Shown: one piece after another, positions 3,624 to 64,000 of the stretch | Layout of the letters: every line of letters starts with the position of its first letter | Position numbering within the stretch: position 1 is the first letter of the stretch | Assembly (NCBI GenBank): GCA_963920525.1 | Contig: OY986439.1 | Location: forward strand, 5,846,501 to 5,910,500 | Source: Dichetophora obliterata | Taxonomy: Eukaryota > Arthropoda > Insecta > Diptera > Sciomyzidae | Length of the DNA stretch: 64,000 nt | Direction of reading: 5' to 3' | Program-made: the position numbers and the translations under genes | Notes under the pieces: model-generated | Seen by the model: the letters and a program-made list of their open reading frames with translations, nothing else | Databases searched by the model: none | What the model was told of the DNA's origin: nothing

Positions 3624-3844
3624 TACTAAAAAAAAACAAAAATGCCCGTTTTGTTGGATTGCGTTTGAAACTTTATGAAAAATTTGTTATTTTTAACCGC
3701 CTTCAAAAAGGAAGAGGTTCTCAAATTGGTTGGTTTCTTTTTTTTAATGTATGTACATCGATAACTCCTAAAGTACTCCTAAAGATTGCCGCAATTTTTT
3801 GTCCACAAATAGAGATATTGGACGCGGTGGTACCCGTTTAAAAA

Positions 3845-5095
3845 AGTAGGCGGTATTCAACAAAGGGGCGTGGCAATAATAGAAAAACGCTGTAACTCGA
3901 ATAATATTGACACTTCGATACTAAAATTAGCTACAGGAGTAGGAAAAATTATTACAAATTATTGGCAAAAAAGTAGGCGTTATGTGATAACGGGCGTGGC
4001 AATATTGTAAAAATGCTGTAACTCGAATAATATTGACACTAGGACACTGAAATTAGGTACAGGGGTAGGCATAATTATGAAAATCTACAGTCAAGAAAAT
4101 GGGCGTTATTGGGCAGAAGGGCGTGGCAATATAAGAAAAATACTGTATCTCAGTTAATATTGACAATAGGGTACTGGTAATCGGTGCAGGGATAGGAACA
4201 ATTATTACAAATTACGGTCAAGAAAGTGGGCGTTATTCGACAAAGGCGTGGCAGCATTAGAAAAACACTGTAATTGGAATAATATTGACACTAGGACACT
4301 GAAATTAGATTAGAAAGGTTAGGAATACTTATGAAAATAGAAAGTGGGCGTTATTGGACAGAAGGGCGTGGCAATATAAGAAAAATACTGTATCTCAGTA
4401 AATATTGACACTAGAGTACTAGAATTTGGTACAGGGGTAGGAACATAATTACAAATTACGGTCAATAAAGTGGGCGTTATTGGACAAAAAGGCGTGGCAA
4501 TATTAGAAAGACACTCTTGCTCTAATAATATGGACACTAATGTAATACAATTCATTACAAGAATGTGTAGAATTATTATAAAACACTATGGAGAAAGTGG
4601 GAGGTAACATACAAAGGGCGTGACACTTTTAGGAAAACACTGTATCTCAGTTAATATTGACACTAGGATTCTGAAATTTAGTACAGGGGTAGGCACAATT
4701 ATTACAAATTATGGTCAAAAAAGTGGGTGTTATTGGACAAAAGGGCGTGGCAATATTAGAAAGATACTCTATCTCGAATAATAATGACACTAGGGCAATA
4801 CAAATATTGCAATTATGACAATTATTACAAATTATGGTCAAAAAAGTGGGCGTTATTCAACAAAGGGCATGGAAATCTTAGAAAAACACTGTTATGCGAA
4901 TAATATCGATACTAGGGGACGGAAATTTGGTAAAAAAATAGGTAAAAATTATAACAAAACACAATCAAGAAAGTAGGCGCAATTTCTCAAAGGGCGTGTC
5001 ACTACAAGAAAAACACTTTATCTATAATATTGGCACTAGGGTACCAAAATTCGTTACAAGAATGGGCAAAATTGTTGTCATAATATCTTAAAAGG
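3845..5095. repeat. tandem array, about 10 diverged units of 118-127 bp
   Basis: Unit starts (AGTGGGCG or AGTAGGCG) fall at 3845, 3972, 4098, 4225, 4343, 4469, 4596, 4722, 4845 and 4972, giving periods of 127, 126, 127, 118, 126, 127, 126, 123 and 127 bp. Each unit carries AGTGGGCGTTAT, then GGGCGTGGCAA about 12 bases later, then a conserved AATATTGACACTAGG block. Units differ by many substitutions and small indels, so the array is old. Short minus-strand frames across it (around 4319-4841) are repeats of one peptide and are not taken as genes. A large foldback begins 13 bp beyond the last unit. Confidence 0.85.
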
Positions 5096-5541: not shown

Positions 5542-6700
5542 TTTTTTCTTAAAATTTTGCGCATTTTCGTTAAAACATGATTTAGAAAAGTGGTCATAAA
5601 ATCCTTATTGTAATGTAGTCTGATACCAAACTTTGGGAATGTGTAAAGAAAGGTATGTTTTAAGTCATACTTAATAATAAAAAAAAAAATTATTTTTTAA
5701 TTGTATATAGAAACTTATGTTTTTTTTTTATTTCTAAGATTTTTCTTGTGGTATACGAACATTTTTTTATTTATATTTTTATATTTGTATTTTCTAGCAA
5801 GAACCTGTAAAATATATTTTTGCTAAAGTTTTCTATATGAATTTTACTAAAACTTTTGGAATTTTTTAAAATATTCAGCACTGAACTATAAAAACTGAAA
5901 TTTCCTAACATTTTCTAGGCAGCAGATAAAGACCATAACTACCACAAATGGAAAGATATCAAATAATCCTTTAAGATTCAAATAATTAAGACTCCAAGCT
6001 ATAAATTTGCATAATTACTTTTACAAATTTATGACTTTTTTTCCACCACTTCTGTCCACCTCGTTACACTGTGCGTCATTGCAATGAAGACACAGTTTCT
6101 AGATAATTAAAATGCAAACCTTTTGACATGTTGCTCGATTTTCTGAGATACCTGACTTCTCAGATATACACAAAATATTATAATATTTAATCATATTTTT
6201 CCAAAAAGAAAAATAATTAAACTGCTACCACCCTAAATCACTTGAAAAGTAAAAAGTAAATGAATTTAAAATGAAATACTTTCCCAAATGTATCAATTTT
6301 TAAAATAGCTGCTCTGCTATTGGCTATCTATTTTTAAAGTCTTTAGCTTATAGTCTTTACCACACAGCCAATGACAATCGTAGAAACTCATCCCTTACGT
6401 TCAAGATCCTCCAGACTGCACAGCATGTAGCCATTGTTTCTGCCTTCAGTGGATAATGATTAAGGCAAGCATATGGATGATGAAAACTAACAGTATTTCA
6501 AGTAGTTTAGTTTTGGTTTGTTTTGTTTGTGTTCGAAAGATATTCTGTTATTACTTTGCGATCACTTAAGTGCAAACGTTGATTGCATCGACACGAAAAT
6601 AGCCAGAGTCGCAATAGAAAAAATCTACAGAACTGACACAATCATAATTGTGTTTAAATTTATAAAAAAATTGCTAGTTGTTTTTTTAAAACTATTAAAA
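5542..6700. other. AT-rich intergenic region and probable Dmrt11E promoter/5' UTR
   Basis: No gene is supported here. The stretch is AT-rich with long T-runs. From about 6300 the base composition becomes more balanced, which fits a promoter and 5' UTR for the DM-domain gene beginning at 6701. An in-frame ATG at 6518 would add a hydrophobic 61-residue extension unlike the family, so I treat 6518-6700 as 5' UTR. Confidence 0.4.
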
Positions 6701-9700
6701 ATGTCCCAATCAAACGTGAGCTCATCCGATAGTAACCTCAAAGCGAACACAACCACAAAAGCATCATCCGCCGCAGCAACACTTAAAGAACGCCGAATGC
6801 TACGCACGCCAAAGTGTGCCAGATGTCGCAATCATGGAGTCATTTCCTGTGTGAAGGGACATAAAAAACTATGCCGTTGGCGTGAGTGCTGCTGCCCCAA
6901 TTGCCAACTTGTTGTAGATCGTCAGCGTGTTATGGCCGCTCAAGTCGCGCTCCGGAGACAGCAAACTATAGAGTCATTGGACTCAAACCTGGCATTTGCT
7001 ATACCCAATGACCCATGTCATACAACAGGCAAAACATCAACGCTGGCGTCATCCACCCTACGCACCAAGGAGGCGCTTATCATGCAAAAAAAGATCTACA
7101 AAGATCGACTACGTTCGCTACAACAATCATCGATTAATATAACCGCCGCAATTGAAGGTAAATAGTGTTAATAAATTTATCTTTATAAATACTATCCAAT
7201 ATCCAAGAACGATAACACGGTGTTACAGTGAAAAAAAACTCGGGTCGAGACACGGTAGAGGCTGTAGGTCTGGTTGAACATAAGATAACTGCATACTTAG
7301 TTTTTTAAATATACCCTCAAAATCGGGATTTGAGGTAGAAAACCCGATTTTTGGTAGGTGCATGAATAGTTTGTTGTGTAACTCCGTTTTGTCTAGCTGA
7401 ATTTTATCAATTAAAACGTTGAAAGAAAATAAACCTTTAAAATGGTATATAGACCATTTTTTACCGAACGAACCGACAAAGTTACAGGTAAAATCATTTG
7501 AAAATTTCTCATTTTTTAATTTTTTTAATTTGAACAACGTTTCGTTGAATAATTTTATTCCGTGGCACCATCATTTTGGTTAAATTTTAAAAGCCTGTTT
7601 AATTTTGGGTGCAACAAGCTATTATTTACCGCAATCGGCTGAATGCACTAGCAAATTTTTAGTATTCGTAATAAAACGCAAACAAAAAATTTTTTTTCTA
7701 AAAATGTTTGTTTGACCTTTTTCGTTTATATACCCTCCAGAAATATATATTATCATTGATTTCACGTATAAGTGACTAGTAGTAGTCTGCCAACATGAGA
7801 TGAGTTCTTTTCTTCAATTTTGAGTGATATTAGAATCATAACATACGAACGTGACCGAGATTTAGTTTCCAAATTAGAATTTTTTTACCCCCTTCTATTC
7901 AATATTGATGAGCACTGGACACATATAAATTTAGGTTCCATCCAATTGCTAGCGGTATATCAACGGCTAAAGGTGCTCCCAGACTATATGTTTCATACAG
8001 CTGATATGTCAAAAAAATTGCTTCTCCTTCGGCCATTCAAACTAAAAATAAATTCATTACAAATCAATTTATTTCTTTATCTTAAAATTAATTTATCTTA
8101 AAATTTCTTTTTTCTTCTATTTTCACAAAATAAATTTTTAAAAAATTTATCAAACTGACATTTTGTACAAATGGAAAAACATACGAAATTCGAGACAGTT
8201 CTAAATCAAAAATTTACAGACGCAAATACAAACGACATTTCAAAACCACAGTTGCATATGTTCCACACTATATGTAGCTAAGAACCATTTGTAATTTTTG
8301 ACGTGTCATATGTATGAAACATTTATAGGGTATTCACAAGGTGTGCTATCATGTCATATTATCATATTGTCCTAAAATTTTACAACTAATATTTACAAGA
8401 TAAATAAGTGCAAATAAGAAACATCTGTTTGATCACGACACTTCAATAAACATAGCATTCAGAGTTGAAATATACAAGTGCTTTTTTATATGCAAGACAA
8501 CAATAAAATGTTTAAACTAGTGTAAAATCTTAGGACAATATGACATTATGACATGATAGCACACCTTGTGAATACCCAAATAGTGTAGAGGCACTTTAAG
8601 CGATTTATTATACACCTCTATTAACCCTCTGTTACTAACGCTATTCGGAGTTACGTCATTACTAACCTGGGTGTAATCCACCCATAAATTTTAATTCATT
8701 AATTTGTAAAAAATAACGCTAAAACAGTAAAACTCTTCTGCTTTTATTAATTTCGTATATTTTATTATTCTATTAAACTTAAAATTTGTCCAGCTTAATT
8801 AATATTTTATTAATATTTTTAATAAAAATATATCAAAATAACGTTAATTAGCGAACCAAAAATAAAAAAATAGCATAATGATTTGAATAATTTCACATTT
8901 CGAGGTCAAATTATTTGCCACGTTCTTCGAGAGGGCCAATTTGAAAAGCTAAAAGATGTATGAAAAAAAATTTTCTAAAAATTTTCAAAAAAATTTTTTT
9001 TTGCAATGAAAATTTTTTAAAATAATGACCTCTAATTATTCGTTATAATTGAAACATTAGCCTCTCATGGCACAGCAGCGCAAGCATCGTAAATAAGCAG
9101 CTGGTACATAGAATAAATGTCGATTATGCAAAACTTAGTTACATAGTCAAAATAAAACGGAATTCAAAGGAATTCTTGGTCACAGAATTATACAATTTCA
9201 CATTTGTTTTGCCAAATCGTCAAATGCATTAAAGAATACGATGAAATCAAAATTAAATAGAACTTCAATGTTTATCTATCTAGAGATGCATTTTTGTTTT
9301 TATCTGAGCATTGCCATGCATTGCCATGTTGTGCATAATCAGATATACGGAAATCCCATTAAACAGATTTCTATGTTACACTTGTTAAGCCATGTCTAAT
9401 TGGACCATTACAAAAGTAATTGAATGATGCAATAATTGCATATTATTGCAAAATATTATAACAAAAAACCCTGTTCAAATGTTCAAATTGTTTGTCAAAT
9501 GGCTAGTCAAATACATATCATAGTTTCTGCACTTCCTTGTGAAGTAAAAATCATCTTAAACGCCAAAAAAAGGGATTTTCTTATTATTTATTGAAATTAT
9601 AATAAGAGACTTTTTTTATTTACTATGGAAATTAATTATTTTCTTTTCATTTTTCACAATATTTAATTTAATAAAAGTTATTAAAGAATTAAAAATAAAT

Positions 9701-26454: not shown

Positions 26455-27525
26455 AAAATATTTATTATTTATTATTTATTCATTCATTCATCAACAGATT
26501 AAAGTATCCTTACTGACTACTAGACTTAAAGTATTAACAGTTAACAATAAAATAATAAAAATAGTTAGTTATTCAAAATATTGCTTATAGTATGCAAATA
26601 AGAACATAAGTGATTTTTGAAAGCATCTCTGCTTAAACCTGGATAGAAATCAACATGTATGCAGACTGAATTCGACAGTTTTAAACAACGTGTTATTGGT
26701 TCATTACAAGTGTAGTTTACTCTGCGATATGGTATATGAAATAAATTCCGTGCTCTAAGATCTCGTGAGGGAATGCGAAAACTAATCTGAAGAAGCAATT
26801 CAGGACAATTAATGCTACTACATATAATATCCCTTACAAACATGACGGCAAAATATTTACGACGCATCTTCAAAGTGAGAATACCGAGAAGTAGACATCT
26901 TACTTTATAAGCCGGCATTTCTATATTCCAATTTAATCGTCCGATTGCCAATCTCGTGAATCGTCTTTGAACTCGTTCAATTCTATCAGAGTGCACTGCG
27001 TAAAAAGGATCCCATATAATGCAGCAGTATTCTAATACTGATTTCACAAAAGCATTATATAATGAAATTAAAGAAAAAGGATCGTTAAATTCCTTTGAGT
27101 TTCTAGCAATGAAACCCACCATGGAATTGGCTTTAGAGATCATATAATCAATGTGCCTAGATAAACTAAGCTTATGATCAAGAATTACTCCTAGATCTTT
27201 CATTTCCGTTATTCGTGATAAAGTTATATCGCCAAGCTTAAACGGGTAAAATAACGGATTAGAGTTTCTGTGAAAAGTCAAACATTGACATTTTGCAATA
27301 TTGAGCGGTAATAAGTTATCTCGACACCAAGTAGATAGTCTCTTTACATCTGACTCAAGATCCGCGCATTCGGATGTCAAGTTCAAACGAGCAAAAATTT
27401 TTATGTCGTCAGCGTACATCAAACACTGAGAAAATTTAAGAATTTTAGGTATTTCATTAACAAATAATAAAAACAGAAGAGGTCCTAAATGACTGCCTTG
27501 AGGAACGCCTGAAGTAACTTATACT
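26455..27525 (-). mobile_element. 5'-truncated LINE, reverse transcriptase C-terminal part
   Basis: The minus-strand frame reads SGVPQGSHLGPLLF (RT block B), then MYADDIKIF (catalytic block C), then thumb/C-terminal sequence containing VLEYCCIIWDP and RIERVQRRFTR. It stops at 26565. The frame upstream of the ATG-like methionine at 27422 continues open to about 27520 and then dissolves into AT-rich DNA, as in a 5'-truncated insertion. A TAAATAATAAATAATAAAT tail at 26460-26485 marks the 3' end. The protein belongs to the jockey/CR1-like non-LTR group. The surviving 285-residue frame has no stops. Confidence 0.88.
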
Positions 27526-33100: not shown

Positions 33101-35008
33101 GAAAACAACAACAAATTTGTCCGTGTCCGCGCAAGTGTGACATGCGCCTATGAAATACAGATTGTCGCTGTTGCGTTCATTATAATCAAGTCGTCGAGAA
33201 TACTGCGACATTTTTCTCTGACGGCAAGTTTTCATTTTGTCGGTGGACGACTGTTGCAGTCAATGTGTATCGGCTATAATCCGTAATAATCTCTTGAACT
33301 CATTTTGATAATTTTTTTTTTTAGTCTCTGATGGGGAAAAAATGAAAAGTTACACAGTGATTCGTCCTCTGGCTCAAAATCAAACAATTTTCTGATAGCA
33401 AATAAAATCGAACAAGATAGGTCAATAAAATTTTTAAAACTTAACGAACATCTGCTAGCTCAAAGAACTTGTAAAATTTTTATGTTTTGAATGAAATTTA
33501 ACTTTTTTTAAAAAATTTTATTAATTTGTATTAGTCGATGTTTTAACTTTAAAATAATATGTATATTTCCTTATTTTTTATAAAAAACTTTTGATTTTAT
33601 TACAGTGGACGAACTATTGTGTGACTTCCAAATTATTTTTTTTCATCAGCGACTCAAAAAACCTCCACTTTCCACTGTACACTTATTAAAATTGAAAAGA
33701 CTAACAAATTTTGCATTATTAGATTGAGTCAGGACATTCGTGGGCGAATCCATTTTTGCTAACAATGCATTTAGATGACATAATATGCTCAAAATTTCCA
33801 GAAATGTCTTCTTGTTTCCGTCTTGAAATCAATTCCAGCTTCAGATGTCAAACAAATAAGGTTTGGATTAAACAAAACAGCTTGGTAAAAATCCCCAAAA
33901 GCCTCCGTATTCTGTTTTTGCAGGTGTTTGAAGCAGTGGATGAGCTGACTGTGACTTACAATTTTAGCCGGGAACTATCACTTATTATCACCGAAGAGGA
34001 TATTCAACAATATAACAAAGTTTTTCGTTTTCTGCTTAAAGTAAAATGGGGATTAATGACTCTGGAGAATTTGCAATTTCCACGATCGCACAAACGTCGC
34101 ATTCCGTATGCAAATTTCGAAATGATTGATTTGTTGATGCGTCGCTTGGAACAGTTACGTTTCTGGATGATATATGCAATACAAAGTATTCATTTTCATT
34201 TGATGACTCACGTGCTACAATCCATGGGAGAGCAACTGGATGAAAAAATAACGAATTCAACTAATCTTAAAGAAATGGTTATGGTTCACAAATCGTATGT
34301 AAGCACTGTTTGCGAACATTGTTTTCTGGTGGATAGCTCAACGGCGATAAAATTGGGTGTAGAACAGGTAGGTTTACTAAATATTATATAACGCATAAAA
34401 ACAAGCTAAGCTGATTTCTTCTTTTCTGAACAAAAGTACAAAAATGGTTTCTTGTACTATATTTTCCTTTTCTAATTTTATTTTTCTTTATGCAACTAGG
34501 CTATTTATATATTATTTAGAGGCATTTTTTATTGTCCTTTATAGTTGTCTTTTTTATTTAAAAAATTTAAAACATGAACAAAATACAAGATTTTTTTAGA
34601 TTCAACTTTTTTATCCAGCAACACACTCCTTCCAACACTCTCAAATTATTTTATCATATTTGGTATTTTTTAGCTACTCAACCTTGCGTATATCTTACGT
34701 TTAGAATGGAATAGCTGTATAAAACATATAGAAAGCCACAATCCACTTGCTTTCGATGCAAATAACAGCACAAGTGACGATTGCGAACATGATTATGTTG
34801 TAAATTCGCAAATTGATGCAATTGAACTAACCTACATTCGCTGTCATCAGTATTTGGCTAATAGGCTTAATAATGAAGTCTACCTTAAACAAAAGACTTT
34901 CCGTAAGAAAAACACAAGCAAAAGTTATTGAATGACTAATATATATATCTATATTTTTTTTTAGTTTCTGGCCTCAGTGCTGCATTTAATACCAGTCTTC
35001 CATATTAA
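30173..35008 (+). CDS. Grip128: gamma-tubulin complex component 5 (GCP5 / Grip128), ten exons
   Basis: Exons: 30173-30250, 30327-30749, 30809-31279, 31355-31673, 31740-31926, 31989-32706, 33723-33860, 33924-34367, 34674-34902, 34965-35008. All junctions are GT-AG and in phase, giving 1016 residues, close to the roughly 1.1 kb-residue size of Drosophila Grip128. GCP proteins bind gamma-tubulin and build the gamma-tubulin ring complex that nucleates microtubules at centrosomes. The N-terminal GCP domain starts in exon 2. The GCP C-terminal signature is clear in exon 8 as YNKVFRFLLKVKWGLMTLE, followed by the LRFWMIYAIQSIHFHL helix. An acidic linker DLSDWSEDSSYSD spans the exon 2/3 junction. Exon 7 is followed by a 63 bp intron without stops (33861-33923), which would add 21 residues if retained. 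Intron 6 (1 kb) carries a foldback transposon. Confidence 0.93.
32785..33290. mobile_element. foldback transposon inside Grip128 intron 6
   Basis: Outer arms pair GATACACATTGACTGC (32811) with GCAGTCAATGTGTATC (33256). Inner arms pair CGGACACGGACAAATTTGTT (33028) with AACAAATTTGTCCGTGTCCG (33109). An unpaired stretch lies between the outer and inner pairs. It is non-coding. The frames at 32864-33286 and 33023-33235 are the two strands of this hairpin. Confidence 0.85.
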
Positions 35009-36416: not shown

Positions 36417-38492
36417 TTTCTCGTTCTTCTCTTGATCTCACAAATTATCTGCACGCCTATAACCTTTTTTCAGCACTCTGTGAAACACTATACGAGTATT
36501 ATTTTGCTCATATTCAAACTAAATTGTTGTCGGATCCGCAAAACTTCTACAAGTTCATCAATAGCAAAAGAAAATCTGACAACTACCCATCTACCCTTAT
36601 TTTTTCGAACATCTCCTCGGACAACTCGGAAATAATTGCAAACATATTCGCAAATTTTTTCGGTCAGTCATACACAAATCATAACGATGAACTAGACTAC
36701 GAATATTTTTCTATGTTTAGGAACAGTCCTCAAACGTCGCTGACTTTTATTGATATTACACTAGCTGATGTGTTAGGAAAGATAAATAATCTAAAGGACG
36801 ATTATTCTAATGGACCCGATGGTTTGCCTGCTATTGTTACCAAAAAATTCGCGAACTTGTTTCTTCGAATTCTTTCTTTCTTTCGAACTTTTTATTTCTA
36901 ATTCAGTTTTTCCTAAGTTATGGAAGAGTTCGTACATAATACCTTTGCATAAAAAAGGAACTAGAAATGATATTACAGAATTACATACCTATTGCAAAAC
37001 TGTTATGTACACCCAAAATTTTTGAAAGAATTATCTATGTCATTCTCTTTTTCTATTGCAAATCTATTTTTCCTCCTATTCAAACCGGCTTCCTCAAGGG
37101 AAGATCGACTGCCACTAACCTTACAGAAACTGTTTCAAACGCTTTATGCTCGTTGGAAAACGGATAAGAAGTTGATGCAGTTTCTACCGACTTTAGTAAA
37201 GCGTTCCACAAAATCTTGCACACTATCATTCTTCTTAAGCTTGAAGCCTTTGGTTTTCCATCACTGTTTATATCATGGATTAAATCATATCTCGAAGAAC
37301 GACGTTACCATGTCATCTTTAGATTTTCCAATTCAGAGTCTTTTACAGCTACCTCTGGTGTCCCACAAGGTCGTCACCTTGATCCATTGTTGATCGTCTT
37401 AACAATCTCTGATGTAGATGGAATCATCAAAGATTCCAATCTCTCTGTATATGCTGATGATATGAAAATCTATCGGCGCGTACAAACCAACGCCGATTCT
37501 TGCAATCTTCAAGATGATCTGGTTAGTTTTTCCACTTGGTGTCAAAAAATCTTCTTGAGCTCAACATCAGTAAATGTCAAGCAATTACATATTCACTAAA
37601 GCGTCTCCAGCTTCCCCCGTGATCTTATTACTTACTCGGCAAGCCAGTTCCTCCTGCAAGCTATTTACGGGACTTAGGTGTAGTATGTGACAAGGAACTT
37701 AATTTCAGGTATCATATTGATAATCAGCCCATTTTTTCATATCCATATTTTTCATTTTAAAAATAAAGCTCAAAAACATTTTGGATATTTTTATTTGTTC
37801 ATCAACGGTTTAGCAAACAATTTATATTAAATATTTCTAAAATGATATTGGGCTGTATCTTAAAAATGAAGACTCTCTTTTCGGATTCCGCGTGAAAAAT
37901 TATTCATGATAGAACTGAATATCATTAGTAGAGCCAACTTTGCACTGGGTTTCGTGAAACACTGGTCCAGTTCTCCAATCCTTACGTGACCAAATCTCCC
38001 TACCTTACCTTTGTTAGACCCATCCTTGAATATCCCAGCCAGGTTTAGTCTCCTATCTACAACACTCATTCTGTCCAAATCGAAGCCGTTCAACGAAGAT
38101 TCATTCTGTTCGCACTTCGTGGTCTTCCCAATTCTGACAGTTTCAACTTACCTCCTTATGCAGACCGCCTGAAAGTGATTAACATGCAAATTCTTGCAAA
38201 ACGAAGGGAAGTAGCCGATGTACTCTTCATTCATCAACTTGCATGCAAAAACCATTTACTGCCCAGCACTACTCCAATTAATATCCTTTAATACAAACCC
38301 ACGTAACCTTAGGTCTATTCCTCTCTTCCACCTCAACTTTCACCGCACTGACTACGAATGCAGTGAACCTGTAACCAGGATGCTTCGTGTAACCAACAAT
38401 TTGATTAGCGAATTCGATTTTCATCTGAGCAGATCTCGACTCCGAATGCTCTTCTTAACTCCAGCTTGTGTTAAGCTTAACGAATAAATACC
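36417..38492 (+). mobile_element. LINE (non-LTR retrotransposon) inserted in the piggyBac-like relic
   Basis: A degraded ORF2 is read across several frames: KFINSKRKSDNYPSTL (pre-RT); SNGPDGLPAIVTKKF; VFPKLWKSSYIIPLHKKGT; IAKLLCTPKIFERIIY; QTGFLKGRSTATNL; SGVPQGRHLDPLL; and VYADDMKIYRRV, with the YADD core intact. A C-terminal part ends at about 38487 with an AATAAATA tail. At least four frameshifts and internal stops make it dead. The endonuclease domain is absent (5' truncation near 36417). It resembles the copy at 26.5 kb in the C-terminal EPVTRMLRVTN / EPITRCLKLSN block but is a different family. Confidence 0.85.
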
Positions 38493-43700: not shown

Positions 43701-46393
43701 AAAAATTTCTTTGAAACTTTTTCTTTAAACCCTGTTCAATTGCATTAATAGATAAAAACAGTGAAAATAAAAAAAGCTGTTATTGTATACATATATTCGG
43801 CTGTCAAAATTGCATTAAATTCTATTACAATTTTTGAAAGCATCCCATACAACTCAACTTAGAATGGTTGTAAGCCATAATACCAACAAATATTCCAGTG
43901 GTGTGCTAAGTTGAGTTGAGTTGTAGACAACCCAACTCAGTTTGGTTGTAAATCATAATAGGGCTATTATTTAAAATAAACTTAAATGCAGTGGGCAATG
44001 ATGGCATCCCGCTAAAGTTTATAAAAATACTCTTTCCTTATATTCAGAACCTTTTACTCCACTTCATAAATTGTATTCTTATGACATCTGTCTTTCCTTC
44101 TGATTAGAAGATTGCCCGTGTAATCCCAATCAAAAAGAAAGACAAATCTAGTTCTCTTGAAAATTTGCGTCCCATCTCTGTTCTGCTTGTTCTATCAAAA
44201 GTAATTGAGAACTTAATGAAACAACAAATAATAGATTATACAAATCGACACTTGCTTGTAAATAGTTGCCAGTCAGGCTTTCGTAAGGGATATAACACCA
44301 CGTCGCACAGTGGTTTCAAAATGGAATTAAATAATTTTTTTCACGTTGTAATTTTTGTTCGTTTTTTTTTTTACTTTAAGTTTAGGAATGTTTCATTAAC
44401 ATATTAAAAAAAATCTAAGATAAGTCTTCTCAATTTTTGTGGCCGAGCAGTGAATGTCGGCAAAATTTTTTCCTCTCAAAAACAGCCATGATTTAAAGCC
44501 GGATTCCGGTAGCAACTGCTCCGACATAATTGCTTGTATTCACTTAAATCTTTTTATATACAATATTGTGATGTATCTAAAAAACATATTTATTAATGAT
44601 ACATTTTTTTATTACTGTGTTTTTTTAATAATTTTATTAAGACCATGTTTTTCCCCAGATTCCAAAGTTTGGTGGACCAGAACTAAGTTATCGTCACTTA
44701 TCGATATACTTATCGATACTTATCACTTATGCTGCTAACCTGGTTTTAACGAACAAAAGAGTGAATGCATATTTGTACTGCACACATTGTCAAAGGATAT
44801 GTAATATTTTTGTTTTCTTCTTTTTTTTTTTATTTTAATTATAATTGAAAATGTTATATAATCCTAAATGTTATATAATAAGAAAAAATATGTATGGGAG
44901 GTGGGCGTGGCAATTTTTTTTAAATATACACATATATATATTTTATATTCTTCATCATTTTAAATTTTTGTGTTATATGGGAGGTAGGCGTGTTTGTAGG
45001 CGGATTTGCAAAATTTTTTGTAAGTGCTCTTATATAGTTCATTTCAACTTATCGTCGTCCTAATTCTAATAGGATGTATGTCAATATTGGGCAAAGTATC
45101 GTTCATTAGCGTTTTACGTAGATTGGTTAAAACTACATCTAAACTACATTGGTTAAAACTACATCTATGTCTTTTTTTAGTTTTTAATGATTGTATGAAA
45201 ACAAGTGGGGTAGAACGTTTGAAACACTACATTATCGTATGAACTTCATACAAATAATAAACAGCTTTCTTTGCCTCCTGAACAATAGATAATTTTGGCT
45301 TACGTCGTATTAGAATTAGGCCGACGTTATGTATATACCAAATTTTATTGGTATACGACTACTCCATATTAATGCTATGCAAATATCGTATAAAAAGTAT
45401 GGGAGGTGGGCGTAGCAAATTTTTTTTAATATACATATATATTTCAGATCCTTGAGTGAGTTGTTTTGATATAACTTCAATACGAACAAAATATAGCTTT
45501 TTGAATTTTGTGTTATATGAGAGGCAGGCGTGTTTGTGGGCGGATTTCAAAAACTTTCTTTAATATCTGCTAATAGAGGTAATTCCAACTTATGTACCAA
45601 ATTTGATTGCTCTATGACGACTCCTTCTATTTTTTTCCAAACTTTATATGGGATTAATCCACTGTGCGTCGTTGCTTTTGTGACTCACTGATACTATAAG
45701 GAGCAATGTGAACCAGAATAAGCTATTTGTTGTTCTTTCGCTTGATTTATCTAAGGCTTTTGACTACATTAACCACTGTGTTTTGATAACCAAATTGTGC
45801 ACTAAATTTCAATTTTCTAAATCCGCGTGTGATTTAATCTCGTCATACCTTTCAAATAGTAAAAAATTTGTCTCATATAATGAACCAATATCAGACTTGC
45901 TGACTGTTAATGGTGGTGTGCCTCAGGATTCGGTCTAAGGACATACTTTGTTTATGTTTTACGTTAATGATTTAGTGGATTGCTAATATCACAATGCCTG
46001 CACTCCTTATATTTTTGCTAATGATATACAACTTCTGTTCAGTGGTGAAATGGAATTTGAAGCTGTCATAGATTTTAATATTCATAATATGTACATATAT
46101 GAAATGTAACTATTTCAATATCAATTCAAACAAGACTAAAGCTATGCTGTTCTCTAGTAAGTGATATGCTAACATAAATTGGTACATTCCTTATTATTGT
46201 CCAATTTATCCTACTGCATAGAGGTCTATTCCGGAGCATTATAACTAGTGTCCGACCGAATATTCGGTTTCGGTTACGGCCAGTTTCGGCCCTTTTTGGC
46301 AGTTTCGGCTGGTTTCAGCTATTCGGCCTCAATATGGCCATATTGAAACTTTTGCTAAAAATTTCGGAACATTTCAAGAATAGTGACAACTAT

Positions 46394-50397: not shown

Positions 50398-51891
50398 TTA
50401 ATGAAAATATAAGCTTTTGGTGCATCCACCAACAGTTATCACAAATACGTAATGAGTTTTGTCTAGTTTTGTTGCACATGCGGGCAAGTTAAAGCGAAAA
50501 ACTGGCTTCTCGTTCGCATCATGAGAAAACTCGTAAAAAAGGTCCACTAAGCTATTGGAAGAGCTTCTTATTTCAATAAGTTTTAAAGCATCTTTACCTC
50601 CACTTATAACCGACTGGGTAGCACCATCGAATGTAAGCTCCTCATCGGTGCATCGAGCATCCAATTCCTTATTATTACGTTTCTTAATCCATAGATGGTG
50701 CGCCAGAATTACAGCACAATTTCGGGAAAAATAAAAACTATCTCCACACTTCTGTTCATGGTACTTTTCCATAAAATCACCACCATTGTTTTTGAGTTGT
50801 GTAAATCTGGAAGTATTTAGTGGACCTTTGCGTTTTATTGACTCTGTAATAGCTTTTTGTATTTGCCGTTTGGGTAAATGTTCAGTTAAATTGTCAATAG
50901 TAAAAACGCGGTTTAAATAATCGAAGCCTGTTCCCATGATGCCATCCTGCGTATGACCCAAATCAAAAATATGCCCAAGTTCATGACAAACTGCTCCAAG
51001 TGACGTTGCATATACGCCCGCATGTGTGCGCCTGTAGTTGCTATCATCAGGAAACTTTACAAGATCTACTTTAGATTCGTCTTGGAAGCATGGCATAACA
51101 CCCTTCAAGGATTGTGGCCAAGCATAAAAATAACTTGAACCAAAAAGAGCAAGTCCTCCCCCGCCTAGAGCTGCATGTGCCTTCAAATGCCGTCTGATAT
51201 TGGCGTATGAAAAGTCCTTTAGAGCAGCTACGGCAGCTCCATTATATCTGGTACACGCAATAAATGCTACGAATTTTAAGCTAGAGTCCCTCCCGAGTTC
51301 CGAGTTTAGAATTTCTTTTCCAAAGGCATACCACAATTCATCCTCAGTACTTTTCCAAGCCTGCTCGCTAGTTAGAGCCGAGTGAAATATTTGACACTGA
51401 CCATTCAGAGTAAAACTCTGTCGATCAAATCCATATTCTCGTAGTTTTTCAGCGTACAAACTCTGCACAAGCAACAAATTCAGGTCAATGAGTTTACATG
51501 CGGTGTCAGCATTTCCATTATTTCCCTGCCTTGTTAAGTATTCCCCTTTTTCACCCTGGCAGATTATGTACAACGGCTGAATCCGAAAGCAGTTGTCGGA
51601 AACTTGATGATATATTCTTAAATTTTGTTGCGAGTAACAGTAGTTTAATGTTAATCTCAATTCTAGATGATTTTGTAAATCCACTAAAAGTTTGAATTCG
51701 CCACTCCGAGCAACTCGAGTTGATTGTAAATTAATCTGCTGATTTTTGCTATCGGTTATTTTTATATTTACTTCATCATTTTGGCTGCAACGCGGAATAA
51801 CCTTTCCTATAACTAACAAGAGTTGATGATTTACAACATCATCGTTACGTATATTGTTTATTTTTATTTCATGCAAACACTTGTCTGTCAT
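50398..51891 (-). CDS. putative zinc metallopeptidase, YIL108W/Metallopep (PF12044-type) family
   Basis: A single open exon of 497 residues is read from MTDKCLHEIK at 51891; a TTG three codons upstream is in frame but is not a start. The zinc site CHELGHIFDLGHT lies at residues 302-314, giving the HExxHxxxxxH ligands and a following D/H-rich turn, with a Met-turn-like GIMGTGFDYLNR about 5 residues later. The N terminus is a beta-rich domain (GKVIPRC...). It contains ALGGGGLALFGS before the catalytic helix, as in the fungal YIL108W family of cytosolic putative metallopeptidases of unknown substrate. There is no signal peptide. An AATAAA lies at about 50343 on the minus strand, 50 bp past the stop. 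The family is usually longer (600-700 residues), so a further N- or C-terminal exon is possible. Confidence 0.85.
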   Translation of the reverse strand: MTDKCLHEIKINNIRNDDVVNHQLLLVIGKVIPRCSQNDEVNIKITDSKNQQINLQSTRVARSGEFKLLVDLQNHLELRLTLNYCYSQQNLRIYHQVSDNCFRIQPLYIICQGEKGEYLTRQGNNGNADTACKLIDLNLLLVQSLYAEKLREYGFDRQSFTLNGQCQIFHSALTSEQAWKSTEDELWYAFGKEILNSELGRDSSLKFVAFIACTRYNGAAVAALKDFSYANIRRHLKAHAALGGGGLALFGSSYFYAWPQSLKGVMPCFQDESKVDLVKFPDDSNYRRTHAGVYATSLGAVCHELGHIFDLGHTQDGIMGTGFDYLNRVFTIDNLTEHLPKRQIQKAITESIKRKGPLNTSRFTQLKNNGGDFMEKYHEQKCGDSFYFSRNCAVILAHHLWIKKRNNKELDARCTDEELTFDGATQSVISGGKDALKLIEIRSSSNSLVDLFYEFSHDANEKPVFRFNLPACATKLDKTHYVFVITVGGCTKSLYFH

Positions 51892-51931
51892 TGCATTCAA
51901 ACCAAATTTTGGACCTACATATTAGGACAGC

Positions 51932-53941: not shown

Positions 53942-55185
53942 CAGGGTCCGCCAAATAACTTTTTTTTTTTTGAAAATTCTATAAAAAACTACTGAATATT
54001 GTCTCAAATGTCTTTTTTTTTATTTGAAAGTACAATCCTTCCGGTTAATAATGGAAAATAATTTCATTCAAATGGCTACCTCGGCTGGTCATGCAGTAGC
54101 CTACACGATCGGTCCAATTTTTAAGCACATTATCGATTGTGTACAGCTATATTTCACCAATGGCTTCACGGATATTGTCCTTTAAAACGTCAATTGTCTC
54201 TGGCTTGTCGGCGTAACACTTATCTTTGAGGGCACTCCACAAATAATAGTCCAACGGTTTCAAATCGCAGCTCCGAGGTGGCCAAACGACATCAGCTCTG
54301 CGGCTGATAATGTGATCTTCAAAAACAGGGCGCAAAACATCGAGTGTAGCTTCGGCTGTGTGGCACGTAGCGCTGTCCTGTTGAAACCAAATGATGCCAA
54401 TATCCTCCTCTTCAATTTTTGTGAACAAAAATTCGTTCAACATGGCCCGATAACGATCGCCATTGACTGTAACGGCCCCTCCTTGCTCATTTTCGAAGAA
54501 AAATGGCCCAATTATGCCTCTGGACCAAAATCCGCACCAAACAGTGACTCGTTTTGGGTGCACCGGCTTTTCAATGTATGCGTGCGGGTTTTCTGTGCCC
54601 CAAATGCGACAATTTTGCTTGTTTACATACCCGCCAAGATCAAAATGAGCTTCATCTGAAAAGATTATTTTTTTGGCAAAATCGGCATCTTCTGTAAGTC
54701 GATCGCAAGCCCACTTAGCGAAGCGAAAACGCATTGGATGGTCAGTTGGCTTCAACTCCTGAACCAATTGGACTTTGTATGGCGTCATACCAAGGTCTTT
54801 ATGCAAAATTCGTCTCAATGATGTCTCCGAAATGTTCTCGGCAGCAATATTCTCGGGTGTACGCACTGCTTTTGGCTTTTCACGCTTTGGTTTATCGATG
54901 AGGATGCCAGTTTCTTTCACTTTTTTTACAAGATAACGAACATACGGAGCTGACGGTGCTTATCTTCTTCCAAAATCCATACGCAATTTTCGCACACATT
55001 CTGCAACGTTACCATGATTTTCAAAGTAAAGTCGCAATATTTTCCAGCGTTGTTCAATCGTATACACAACCATATTCGTTCAGCGGAAGAATAAAACTAA
55101 TTATCTGTTAAATCAGACATGAGCTAAGTGTTACCATTCACGAAATAAGCACTAGTTAAAAAAAAACGTTAAATGGCTGACCCTG
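53942..55185 (-). mobile_element. rosa-type (DD41D) mariner transposon nested in the LINE
   Basis: TIRs CAGGGTCCGCCAAATAACTT and the inverted CAGGGTCAGCCATTTAACGT bound 1244 bp, with the TA duplication at 53940-53941 and 55186-55187. It carries one transposase pseudogene on the minus strand. Removing the element rejoins the host LINE at CTGGAATTA/TA. Confidence 0.93.
54045..55073 (-). pseudogene. mariner-superfamily transposase, DD41D, two in-frame stops
   Basis: The frame runs from ATG at 55073 (MVVYTIEQRWKIL) to TAA at 54045-54047, 342 codons. It is interrupted only by TAA at 54959-54961 and TAG at 54147-54149, so no frameshift has occurred and the copy is fairly young. An N-terminal helix-turn-helix is followed by the catalytic D in IFSDEAHFDLGG, the second D in FQQDSATCH, and the third in CDLKPLDYYLW. 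There are 41 residues between the second and third aspartates, the spacing of the rosa family rather than DD34D mariners. The C terminus after the second stop still reads NVLKNWTDRVGYC. A 257-residue frame (54147-54920) is the part between the stops. Confidence 0.93.
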
Positions 55186-56652: not shown

Positions 56653-56984
56653 ACAAGTAAAAAAATCGTAGAATATTTCCTGTGTATGCTACACTGATAC
56701 CCATGTATACGGCGTTGCTATGAAGCATAGTTTATGAAATGCAACAATGTGTTTTTAATGAAAGAGAAGAGAATGAGAGAGCAGCCAACCAGTAGGTGAA
56801 ATGAGCGTGAGTGAAGTGCAGCTAATTATAGAGTTCTTTGAGCTGTTGATTTTACTATGCTACGCTTGTATAATAGGGCGCTCTCGATCCATTGGATATT
56901 TAAGTATAGGATTGTTACAATCCGTACTCTCATGCAATTATACTAGACATAGAGAATACCCCTATTGTATTGCATTTAAAACAA

Positions 56985-57312
56985 TGGAGGACACTTCGAA
57001 CCTTTTTTATATTTTGTTCTCTTTAATTTATTAAAAAAAAACACAGTACAATGATTAAGTTTTTTATATAGTTAAATTTTTGAAATGCAAACAACTTTTT
57101 TATTTTCAAAGATATATTTGTGTTTTGGATGTCGTTGAAAAGAAACAATGGAGGACACTTCGAACCTTTTTTATATTTTGTTCTCTTTAATTTATTAAAA
57201 AAAACACAGTACAATGATTAAGTTTTTTATATAGATAAATTTTTGAAATGCAAACAACTTTTTTATTTTCAAAGATATATTTGTGTTTTGGATGTCGTTG
57301 AAAAGAGAATTG
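56985..57312 (+). repeat. recent 164 bp tandem duplication
   Basis: GGAGGACACTTCGAACC starts at 56986 and again at 57150. The two copies differ by about two changes over 164 bp. The duplicated DNA is the end of the inverted partner of the 52650-53085 repeat. Confidence 0.88.
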
Positions 57313-61343: not shown

Positions 61344-62460
61344 CTATGTGTGCGTTTTGCTTTCTTTAAAAGCTATTATCCTTTGAATGTACTGCTCATG
61401 ATTGGCCATAGTTGCCAACAGTCCACGTTTATTCACTGGTGAACCCCCTGCACTGTAGTCAATTAGTTCATCATCTAATGTGGTCATAGTTCCACCAAGA
61501 GCACGAAGAATTGCGTCTCCAGCACAGATATCCCATTTTTTTATCTTTGTGGAATGCAAATATGCCGTGGCATTGTTTGCTACCACTTGCAAAACTTTAT
61601 AGCCAGCACCTGCAGCTGTCAAAATGTTGGAATTTTTACCGAAAACTGATTTGGTTAGAACGTTAACGTCGCCAGGATGTGATCTTGAAACTGTTATAAT
61701 AGGGTGTGTTAGGTCTGGTCCGTTTAAATGAATAGCAGCAAGATATTCAGACATTGTGCGGTCGACCCATGCCCACGCTGTTTGGCCAATAAATGGGTTA
61801 TGAATGACACCTATGATTGGATTACCTTTTACAGCTACACATACCATCGTCGTAACGTACTGATACAGTTGCTCTAAAAATTACCTCATATTTTCATTTT
61901 TCATTCATAAAATTTCATTAAATAATACCTGTAAATTCTTGTGTAGCATCCAGTGGATCAATCCAAATTGTTACATCTTTTGAGTTTACTAGGATATCCG
62001 GAATATTGGCTGTTTCATGCAGCACAGTTGGATCCAAATCAAATGTACTGACATCGGGACAAGTTTGCTTGTCTTCTTCGGATACAATAGTAAGACGTGG
62101 AAATATTCGATGCATACCATGCTTCATAATACAATGCGATCGAGCATCAGCGTCGGTAAACGGATCGTTGGCACCTTCATCGGTTTTCCCTTTGCTTTTC
62201 TCGTTCAATTTTCTCGAACGAGCGACCTCGAGAATTTCAAGACCTCCACGCTGCGCCGCTTGAATTGAAGCAACTAGCAACTTACGTAGATTCACCTTAT
62301 TTTGATTTCGTAGCATTCCGTACATTGCTGGCCGCTCCTCCGAATGAAAATTTAAAAAGTAAACAAGTATGCAGGTGATCACAATTGCTACAAAGGTCGC
62401 CGGCACGCGATGTATGTGTATAGATCTGCCATTCATCTTATCGTACAAAACCACGGTCAT
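61344..62460 (-). CDS. Golgi 3'-phosphoadenosine 5'-phosphate phosphatase (BPNT2/IMPAD1, inositol monophosphatase 3)
   Basis: Exons 61929-62460 and 61344-61873 (minus) join in phase 1 (ACAG/GT...TTTTAG/AG) to 353 residues. A signal anchor at about 19-37 (ATFVAIVITCILVYFLNF) places the enzyme in the Golgi lumen as a type II protein. There it hydrolyses PAP made by sulfotransferases and so supports glycosaminoglycan sulfation. The Mg-dependent/Li-sensitive phosphatase motifs are intact: DPFTDAD (99-105), EED (128-130), WIDPLDATQEFTE (166-178) and WDICAGDAILRALGG. An AATAAA begins about 13 bases past the stop codon (minus, 61331-61326). Two head-to-head SINEs lie 260 bp further downstream. The Drosophila orthologue is the gene I recall as CG15743. 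Confidence 0.94.
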
Positions 62461-64000
62461 GGAACACAGGAAGTTAACGATTCGTTTACCAGCAGAGTGG
62501 TCAGATTATGACTCGTAAGCGTATGCGGTAAAACAAAGCAATCAGCTTTGCTTACGTATAACTTCTTGGTTTTCGGTTAAGATAATAAGATACTAAGATC
62601 ATCGTTTATGATAGGTCAGCATAAAACAAGGAACACGTAAACAAATAATGAAAGAATTTGATAAACAAATACCACCGCTTAAATAGCAACGTTACTAGAA
62701 CTGTCAAAAAGATTGGAGGGGAAATGCAAAGCCTGAAATGGTGCATTAAAAACTATCAATGGCCGCATTCAGTGCAGACAATATATGCCAACTGTTGTGT
62801 ATAAATTCGCTGAATGGTACAATTTTGGTAGCGCTCACTAAGAGCTCGAACAGAAACAAAGCGTATGTCGGTTGTCGGAATCAAAGTGCAAGAAAATACA
62901 TGAAAATATATGCAACCGCTAGAAATTAAACTGCCGTATAAATGCGCGACGGGAAAACGCCGGAATAGATCTATTCAAATTTTTCTCTTACGGCTGGCGG
63001 ATCTCTCTCTGAGTGTCTTTTAATATCTTACAAATTTGTTAAATCTTGCATATTACCTTCGAATACTTGCTATTCATTTCTCCAAATAGTATTGAATCAG
63101 AAAAGTGTTTTTCTATGGTGGGATATTTTTGCAATAAAATGCGCTCTAGTCTCTCTGACGAAACTTTTAATTGTTTAATTTTCCTAGGGTGTTTTTTCTA
63201 AAATGTTGAAAAGTAATTTATATACATTAATGTAGTCTAACAGCCCTATTCTGGTAAACTAACAATCGTTAACCAGTATTTTTTATATATCTATATGTTT
63301 GTTGTTTTCAAAACAAAATTTTAAGCTCAAAAAACAAAATTTTTGAATGAAATTGTCAATAACTGAAAAGCATTTTTATCAAAATTTATTATTTTTGAGC
63401 TTAAAATTTTGCTTCAATATTTTCAATAAACCGCCTTTATCCGGCACGTTAAAGCGAACAGTTTAATGTAGTGTGTTAAACCCAAGCACTGAATAGGCTT
63501 CAGTGAAAGCGATTGTGAAATAGTTTTGAAAAGTTGACAACTCAAATCAGCAGCTAAAATAAAATTTGACAATGAAAGCAAAACAACTTATTTTTGGAAC
63601 GATTTGAAAATAAATTCTTGCTAATGCGCACTTTCTAAGCGGCTTGAAAATTTAATTACTATATATTATATAATTTAATTAAATAATTAACAAATCGAAA
63701 TTTGATTTTATTAAATCGCGTTGAAATTTTCAAGGCGGTTTGAAATTCGGCTTATGCAACGGTTTCAATTAAATCAACTTCGTTCAAGTCGACTTGAAGC
63801 GTCGGATGAACGTGGCAATAAAAACGATACAGAATTTTTTTCACAGTAACTCAAATCTATCGAACTTACCTTGAAAACTTCACAATTATGTAACTTTAAA
63901 CCTAAGTCCTCGAGTCTTGCTAAAACACAATTGAATGAATTTGTTTATTTGACAATTACATCTAAGTCTGCTTTAATGAAATCTATTCTTTAAATTTACT
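62461..64000. other. BPNT2 upstream region and intergenic DNA, no gene seen
   Basis: The first few hundred bases must hold the BPNT2 promoter. A local palindrome occurs at about 63317-63410 (AAAATTTTAAGCTCAAAAA against TTTTTGAGCTTAAAATTTT). Another weak inverted match lies at 63630-63750 (GCGGCTTGAAAATTT against AAATTTTCAAGGCGG). No protein frame or RNA gene is supported. Confidence 0.4.

Follow-up and report, generated by a model that had tools for sequence, protein, structure and literature searches.

The window analysed here, the whole 64-kb stretch of the Dichetophora obliterata genome, carries genes or exons for a DM-domain protein (6506-7162, plus strand), a gamma-tubulin complex component (33723-34388, plus strand), a Metallopep peptidase (50398-51918, minus strand) and a member of the inositol monophosphatase family (61344-62502, minus strand). 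The best named matches of the metallopeptidase came from Rhagoletis, Bactrocera and Teleopsis at 46-47% identity, while its top match overall reached 56%. Tandem arrays occupy 3840-5058 (9.8 copies of a 126-bp unit, 71% matches) and 56979-57306 (2 copies of a 163-bp unit, 98% matches). Reverse-transcriptase fragments from other retroelement copies were noticed at 26565-27515 (minus strand) and 37168-37596 (plus strand), and a 269-aa frame at 54147-54956 (minus strand), which by eye resembles a Tc1/mariner-type transposase, gave no Pfam family at E <= 0.001.

The element studied here lies at 44306-45666 (plus strand), spans 1361 bp, starts with CACAGTGG at 44306-44313 and finishes with CCACTGTG at 45659-45666. 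Both termini show an exact CACAGTG, and CGTCG stands on either side, at 44301-44305 and 45667-45671, a target-site duplication read from the sequence and from the comparison with other copies. The ends, the CGTCG duplication and the length had been given by the first-pass annotation correctly to the single base. The left terminal inverted repeat (44306-44316, plus strand) belongs to an 11-bp family consensus, CACAGTGGTTT, whose bases 1-7 are the RSS heptamer, and the right one (45656-45666, minus strand), which has the same family consensus, reads CACAGTGGATT inward. Pairs of heptamer and anti-heptamer at 300-5000 bp spacing with identical 5-bp flanks occurred once in the window and not at all in 300 dinucleotide-preserving shuffles; when the flank condition was dropped, the window count rose to 4, the mean of the shuffles being 0.26. 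CACAGTGG itself was counted 3 times in the window where 0.56 were expected, its third copy lying at 45773-45780 (minus strand) within the reading of the LINE that surrounds the element. Inside the element there is no open reading frame of at least 120 aa, and tblastn with the protein of a sister Transib copy (L051, described below) gave no transposase match in it, the best E being 0.26. Because this copy codes for nothing, its membership rests on its ends, its target-site duplication and its relatives.

The surrounding LINE supplied a test of the borders. Its reverse-transcriptase reading lies on the plus strand at 44108-44305 (5' side) and, in the same frame, at 45672-45935 (3' side), and with the flanks joined it runs as ...QSGFRKGYNTTS|LLL*LTDTIRSN...VVLSLDLSKAF... 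in a single frame with no codon split. The two sides fall on consecutive stretches of the Pfam profile RVT_1, at positions 1-50 (E 0.00037) and 62-107 (E 0.00013), both being weak matches that score under Pfam's curated cut-off. The LINE is a dead copy: an in-frame TGA follows directly beyond the junction, near the start of the 3' side, and more stops come after it. The earlier claim that removal of the Transib together with one CGTCG rejoins this reading was borne out, as the frame does resume after the insert, in a LINE that has decayed. The Transib appears to have landed in this decayed LINE at CGTCG, the empty site being read from the reading frame.

The element is itself interrupted. Positions 45053-45326 (plus strand; element positions 748-1021) were missing at that point from the other Transib copies compared, which carry one TTAT or a near variant there, whereas in the window copy the 274-bp segment has TTAT on both sides (45049-45052 and 45327-45330) and inverted repeats of its own, CGTCGKCCTAATTCTAATA. 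We had tried the segment as Transib sequence and rejected this, since the copy comparison shows a nested transposon with a TTAT target duplication that stands outside the Transib proper, whose length is therefore about 1083 bp. A genome search with the nested insert, in which 40 of 1080 candidates were scored, gave 52 matches; the majority of the full-length matches are 81-84% identical, and the insert is a many-copy, MITE-like second element.

Furthermore, we searched the genome (1.31 Gb in 76 contigs) for other copies of the family, and collected them with the whole element and with 27-base end patterns rather than with the 40-bp ends that the first-pass annotation had proposed. The whole element gave 73 matches (best 40 of 1960 candidates scored). 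The end patterns, with at most 2 mismatches, marked 108 places for the left end (32 perfect) and 134 for the right end (39 perfect), while a reversed-pattern control found 0 places in the same genome. Both ends were located in 24 copies, which are skewed to good ones because they were taken from the best-scoring 40 of the 1960 candidates. Left out of this count were loci in which an end was absent or was not found (L007, L008, L011/L031, L012, L016/L033, L017/L034, L025/L038, L046, L047, L049 and L050), L020, whose left start was placed by eye though TGACG is readable on both sides, the tandem units L023, L026 and L027, and the first fetches of loci that were refetched longer. Together with L021 these tandem units form a Transib-derived array (G000:C1:157165096-157171233), in which four left ends follow one another at a spacing of 2036-2038 bp.

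The predicted CGNCG duplications were read at the 24 two-ended copies: the duplications are 5 bp long and of the CGNCG type, and the flank consensus is CGNCG. The 5-bp flanks were identical in 13 of the 24 and differed by one base in 7 more, giving at most one mismatch in 20/24. Mismatches of at least 2 bases were confined to four copies, L013 (3/5), L021 (2/5), L036 (4/5) and L048 (5/5); the left ends of L036 and L048 are visibly damaged, and L021 is the final unit of the tandem array. With the exception of these four, we saw neither other end points nor duplications of another length, the outcomes which the first-pass annotation had named as contrary to its reading. Identical flanks of 3, 4 or 6-9 bases were found in none of the 24 two-ended copies, and the 2-base agreement noticed in 13 of them is presumably what CG...CG flanks give by themselves. 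When flanks of different copies were paired, 35 of 552 cross pairs agreed. An exact CGNCG stood outside 11 of the 32 perfect left ends, where 0.03 were expected from the CGNCG density of the window, and outside 14 of the 39 perfect right ends, the expectation from this density being 0.03-0.04 for both ends. CACAGTG was exact at the right end of 21 and at the left end of 16 of the 24 copies; the perfect RAG-heptamer end singled out by the first-pass annotation is indeed exact in the window copy, but it is the normal end of the family and nothing special here. Divergence from the consensus, measured in 21 copies (the 24 without L021, L040 and L048), averaged 4.7% at left ends and 5.7% at right ends (one 17% outlier included), and with ends about 5% from the consensus the family is therefore not a fresh burst.

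The gene that is lacking in the window copy was found in longer relatives. Among 20 longer loci (L031-L050), tblastn with the L051 transposase gave matches of 30-66% identity in 8 (L033, L034, L036, L037, L038, L039, L040 and L048), and in five of these (L036, L037, L039, L040 and L048; 2.7 to 4.7 kb) both family ends were located. All of the transposase readings in the longer copies are broken. Two pieces from L040 matched the structure chain 6pqn_A (E 1.9e-35 and 3.5e-26), labelled in its record as a putative DNA-mediated transposase; we take this chain to be the HzTransib transposase. Motifs with D, D and E are spread over the copies, as SKWGCDG (L040), MIDGKV (L037/L048) and EEAQEAR (L036/L048), and by our own reading of the 6pqn_A alignment they would correspond to D126, D225 and E436, the catalytic residues named in PMC6941560. 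The second catalytic D has been lost in L040. A Pfam-A scan of three transposase pieces of the window family gave no match at E <= 0.001, and the same scan of the sister transposase gave DUF1280 only, at a borderline score, while many listed homologues carry PF26100. In place of the autonomous copy that the first-pass annotation proposed to look for, there are relatives with the same ends that bear a transposase, all decayed as far as seen. Some other copies of the family hold foreign readings (names by eye), reverse transcriptase and mariner-like in L041 and piggyBac-like in L045.

These longer copies also indicate how the window form arose. In both L036 and L048 the gene separates the sequence to the left of element position 586-590 from that to its right, and in the window copy these two sides are fused at GTAT (44892-44895, plus strand), the middle with the transposase gene being absent. 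Of the parent sequence the window element has kept about 590 bp on the left and about 495 bp on the right. A joined form with 6 extra bases (GTATTTGTAT-like) was seen in 12 of the 24 two-ended copies, the window joint being 6 bp shorter, and since half of the copies have one joined form, a single deletion derivative seems to have amplified. We argue that the ancestor would have been a Transib about 4 kb long which lost its gene through internal deletion, that the shortened form would then have spread, and that the nested element would have arrived later. By analogy with known Transibs, the element would have moved by cut-and-paste, full-length relatives providing the transposase in trans; the enzyme would bind the ends, cut so that hairpins form on the flanks, and join the ends to the target with a 5-bp stagger. 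Cut-and-paste movement with hairpins on the flanking DNA is described for Hztransib in PMC6941560.

Taken together, a GC-rich 5-bp target-site duplication favouring CGNCG, terminal inverted repeats opening with a CACNNTG-type heptamer, and a RAG1-core-related DDE transposase, present in longer same-ended copies and not in the window copy, make it almost certain that the window element is a non-autonomous Transib. It has no transposase gene, keeps the parental ends and exists in many copies, as do MITEs and other non-autonomous elements. The Transib call of the first-pass annotation therefore holds, with the amendment that the window copy is a MITE-like, non-autonomous internal-deletion derivative with a second transposon nested inside.

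We also looked at the activity of the family by searching the genome with a 178-aa transposase piece, for which the best 150 of 3424 candidates were scored. Ten of the 150 reached at least 78% identity, one of them being the query's own locus, and this level of identity indicates the same family or a very close one. None of these ten close matches (150 of 3424 scored) was open beyond 247 aa, so that an intact transposase of the window family was not among them. The remaining 140 showed at most 59% identity, and the frames of many are 500 to 726 aa long. Since the transposase genes seen in its own family are broken, the window copy has probably lost all or nearly all of its mobility at present. 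One of the 140, the sister copy L051, contains an open frame of 633 aa which matches 6pqn_A over 155-620 (E 3.7e-124); its left end is CACACTGGTTCA with GACCA outside, and its right end is mutated and then followed by GACCA. Its ends differ from those of the window family by one heptamer base (CACACTG instead of CACAGTG). L051 and L052 are 96% identical over 3.1 kb, and long open frames occur in many further Transib copies of the genome.

This raises the alternative that the window element is indeed a Transib deletion derivative, but one mobilised by the sister family, with its CACACTGGTTCA ends and long frame, and not by its own transposase. The 633-aa frame of L051, the closeness of its ends at a single heptamer base off, and the want of an intact transposase among the 10 close matches of the window family all agree with such a helper. 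On the other hand, copies that lie about 5% from their consensus may have moved when full-length relatives of their own were still intact, and we regard mobilisation by the sister family as unlikely. Transibs with different heptamers thus coexist in this genome, an apparently dead CACAGTG family and a long-frame CACACTG relative, and there is a small chance that the latter moves the former; if it does, this genome would offer an experiment of nature, showing at which positions of the heptamer a RAG1-type enzyme accepts a change.

A second alternative is a MITE from outside the Transib superfamily, with CACAGTG ends and a GC-rich 5-bp duplication that only look like those of Transib. It would fit the absence of a gene from the window copy, an inverted repeat of just about 11 bp and the foreign transposon genes within L041 and L045. 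We consider it very improbable, as five longer copies that share both ends contain Transib transposase fragments, including the L040 pieces that match 6pqn_A, the duplication is of 5 bp and the CGNCG type, and the foreign genes vary between copies, as is expected of nested insertions. That the element is instead a RAG-like transposon (RAG1L-RAG2L, ProtoRAG-type), which would share the RSS heptamer CACAGTG as given in PMC8289069, is hardly credible, because at E <= 0.001 the transposase pieces of the family match the HzTransib chain only and the sister protein reaches 418.7 bits with HzTransib and 27.1 with a RAG1L chain.

Having placed the element among the Transibs, we compared its ends with the vertebrate RSS used by RAG1/RAG2. 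An origin of RAG1 and its signal from Transibs is generally accepted, and our observations fit this view and leave it unchanged. The heptamer CACAGTG is shared with the RSS (PMC8289069), and a 5-bp duplication with RAG transposition (PMC6941560); unlike the RSS, the window family has no supported nonamer or 12/23 spacing. The first-pass annotation had suggested a search for a nonamer-like second block, and its outcome was not positive when the scores of the consensus ends were set against those of shuffled ends. Against the nonamer ACAAAAACC the right consensus agreed at 6/9 positions with a 23-bp spacer and at 5/9 with a 12-bp spacer, and the left consensus at 0/9 and 5/9, respectively, while among shuffled ends about 4% reached at least 6 and about 17% at least 5. 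Conservation in 20-column blocks, a resolution coarse enough to miss one, gave no clear second block. The inverted repeats of Hztransib are described in PMC8289069 as similar to the RSS in the heptamer and little or not at all in the nonamer. According to the parts cited of PMC8355894 and PMC6941560, nonamer-like blocks do exist in some Transibs, some of them with 12/23 asymmetry (PMC8355894), and some Transib heptamers are identical to those used by RAG (PMC6941560).

The end and duplication signatures of the window copy are typical for Transib and are already in print for Transibs, the CGNCG target in PMC4735498 and PMC5704228. What is added is one well-bounded fly Transib family that has the RSS heptamer in exact form and CGNCG as its target, compared here with published descriptions only. 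Full-length HzTransib of Helicoverpa zea is similar in its 5-bp duplication, GCTCG in the original copy (PMC1852546), in the heptamer of its terminal repeats (PMC8289069) and in its transposase, to which those of our longer relatives and the sister family are homologous. It differs in its length of 3518 bp, its long terminal repeats and its 489-aa protein, as described in PMC1852546, whereas the window element is non-coding, measures about 1083 bp plus the nested insert and has a repeat of about 11 bp. Insect Transib MITEs, as described for iMITEdb (PMC5199201), are likewise short and non-autonomous and are assigned by target-site duplication and terminal repeats, and those of Helicoverpa have a 5-bp duplication (PMC9033116). 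The window element is longer than these MITEs, which average about 482 bp in PMC5199201 and range over 75-564 bp in PMC9033116.
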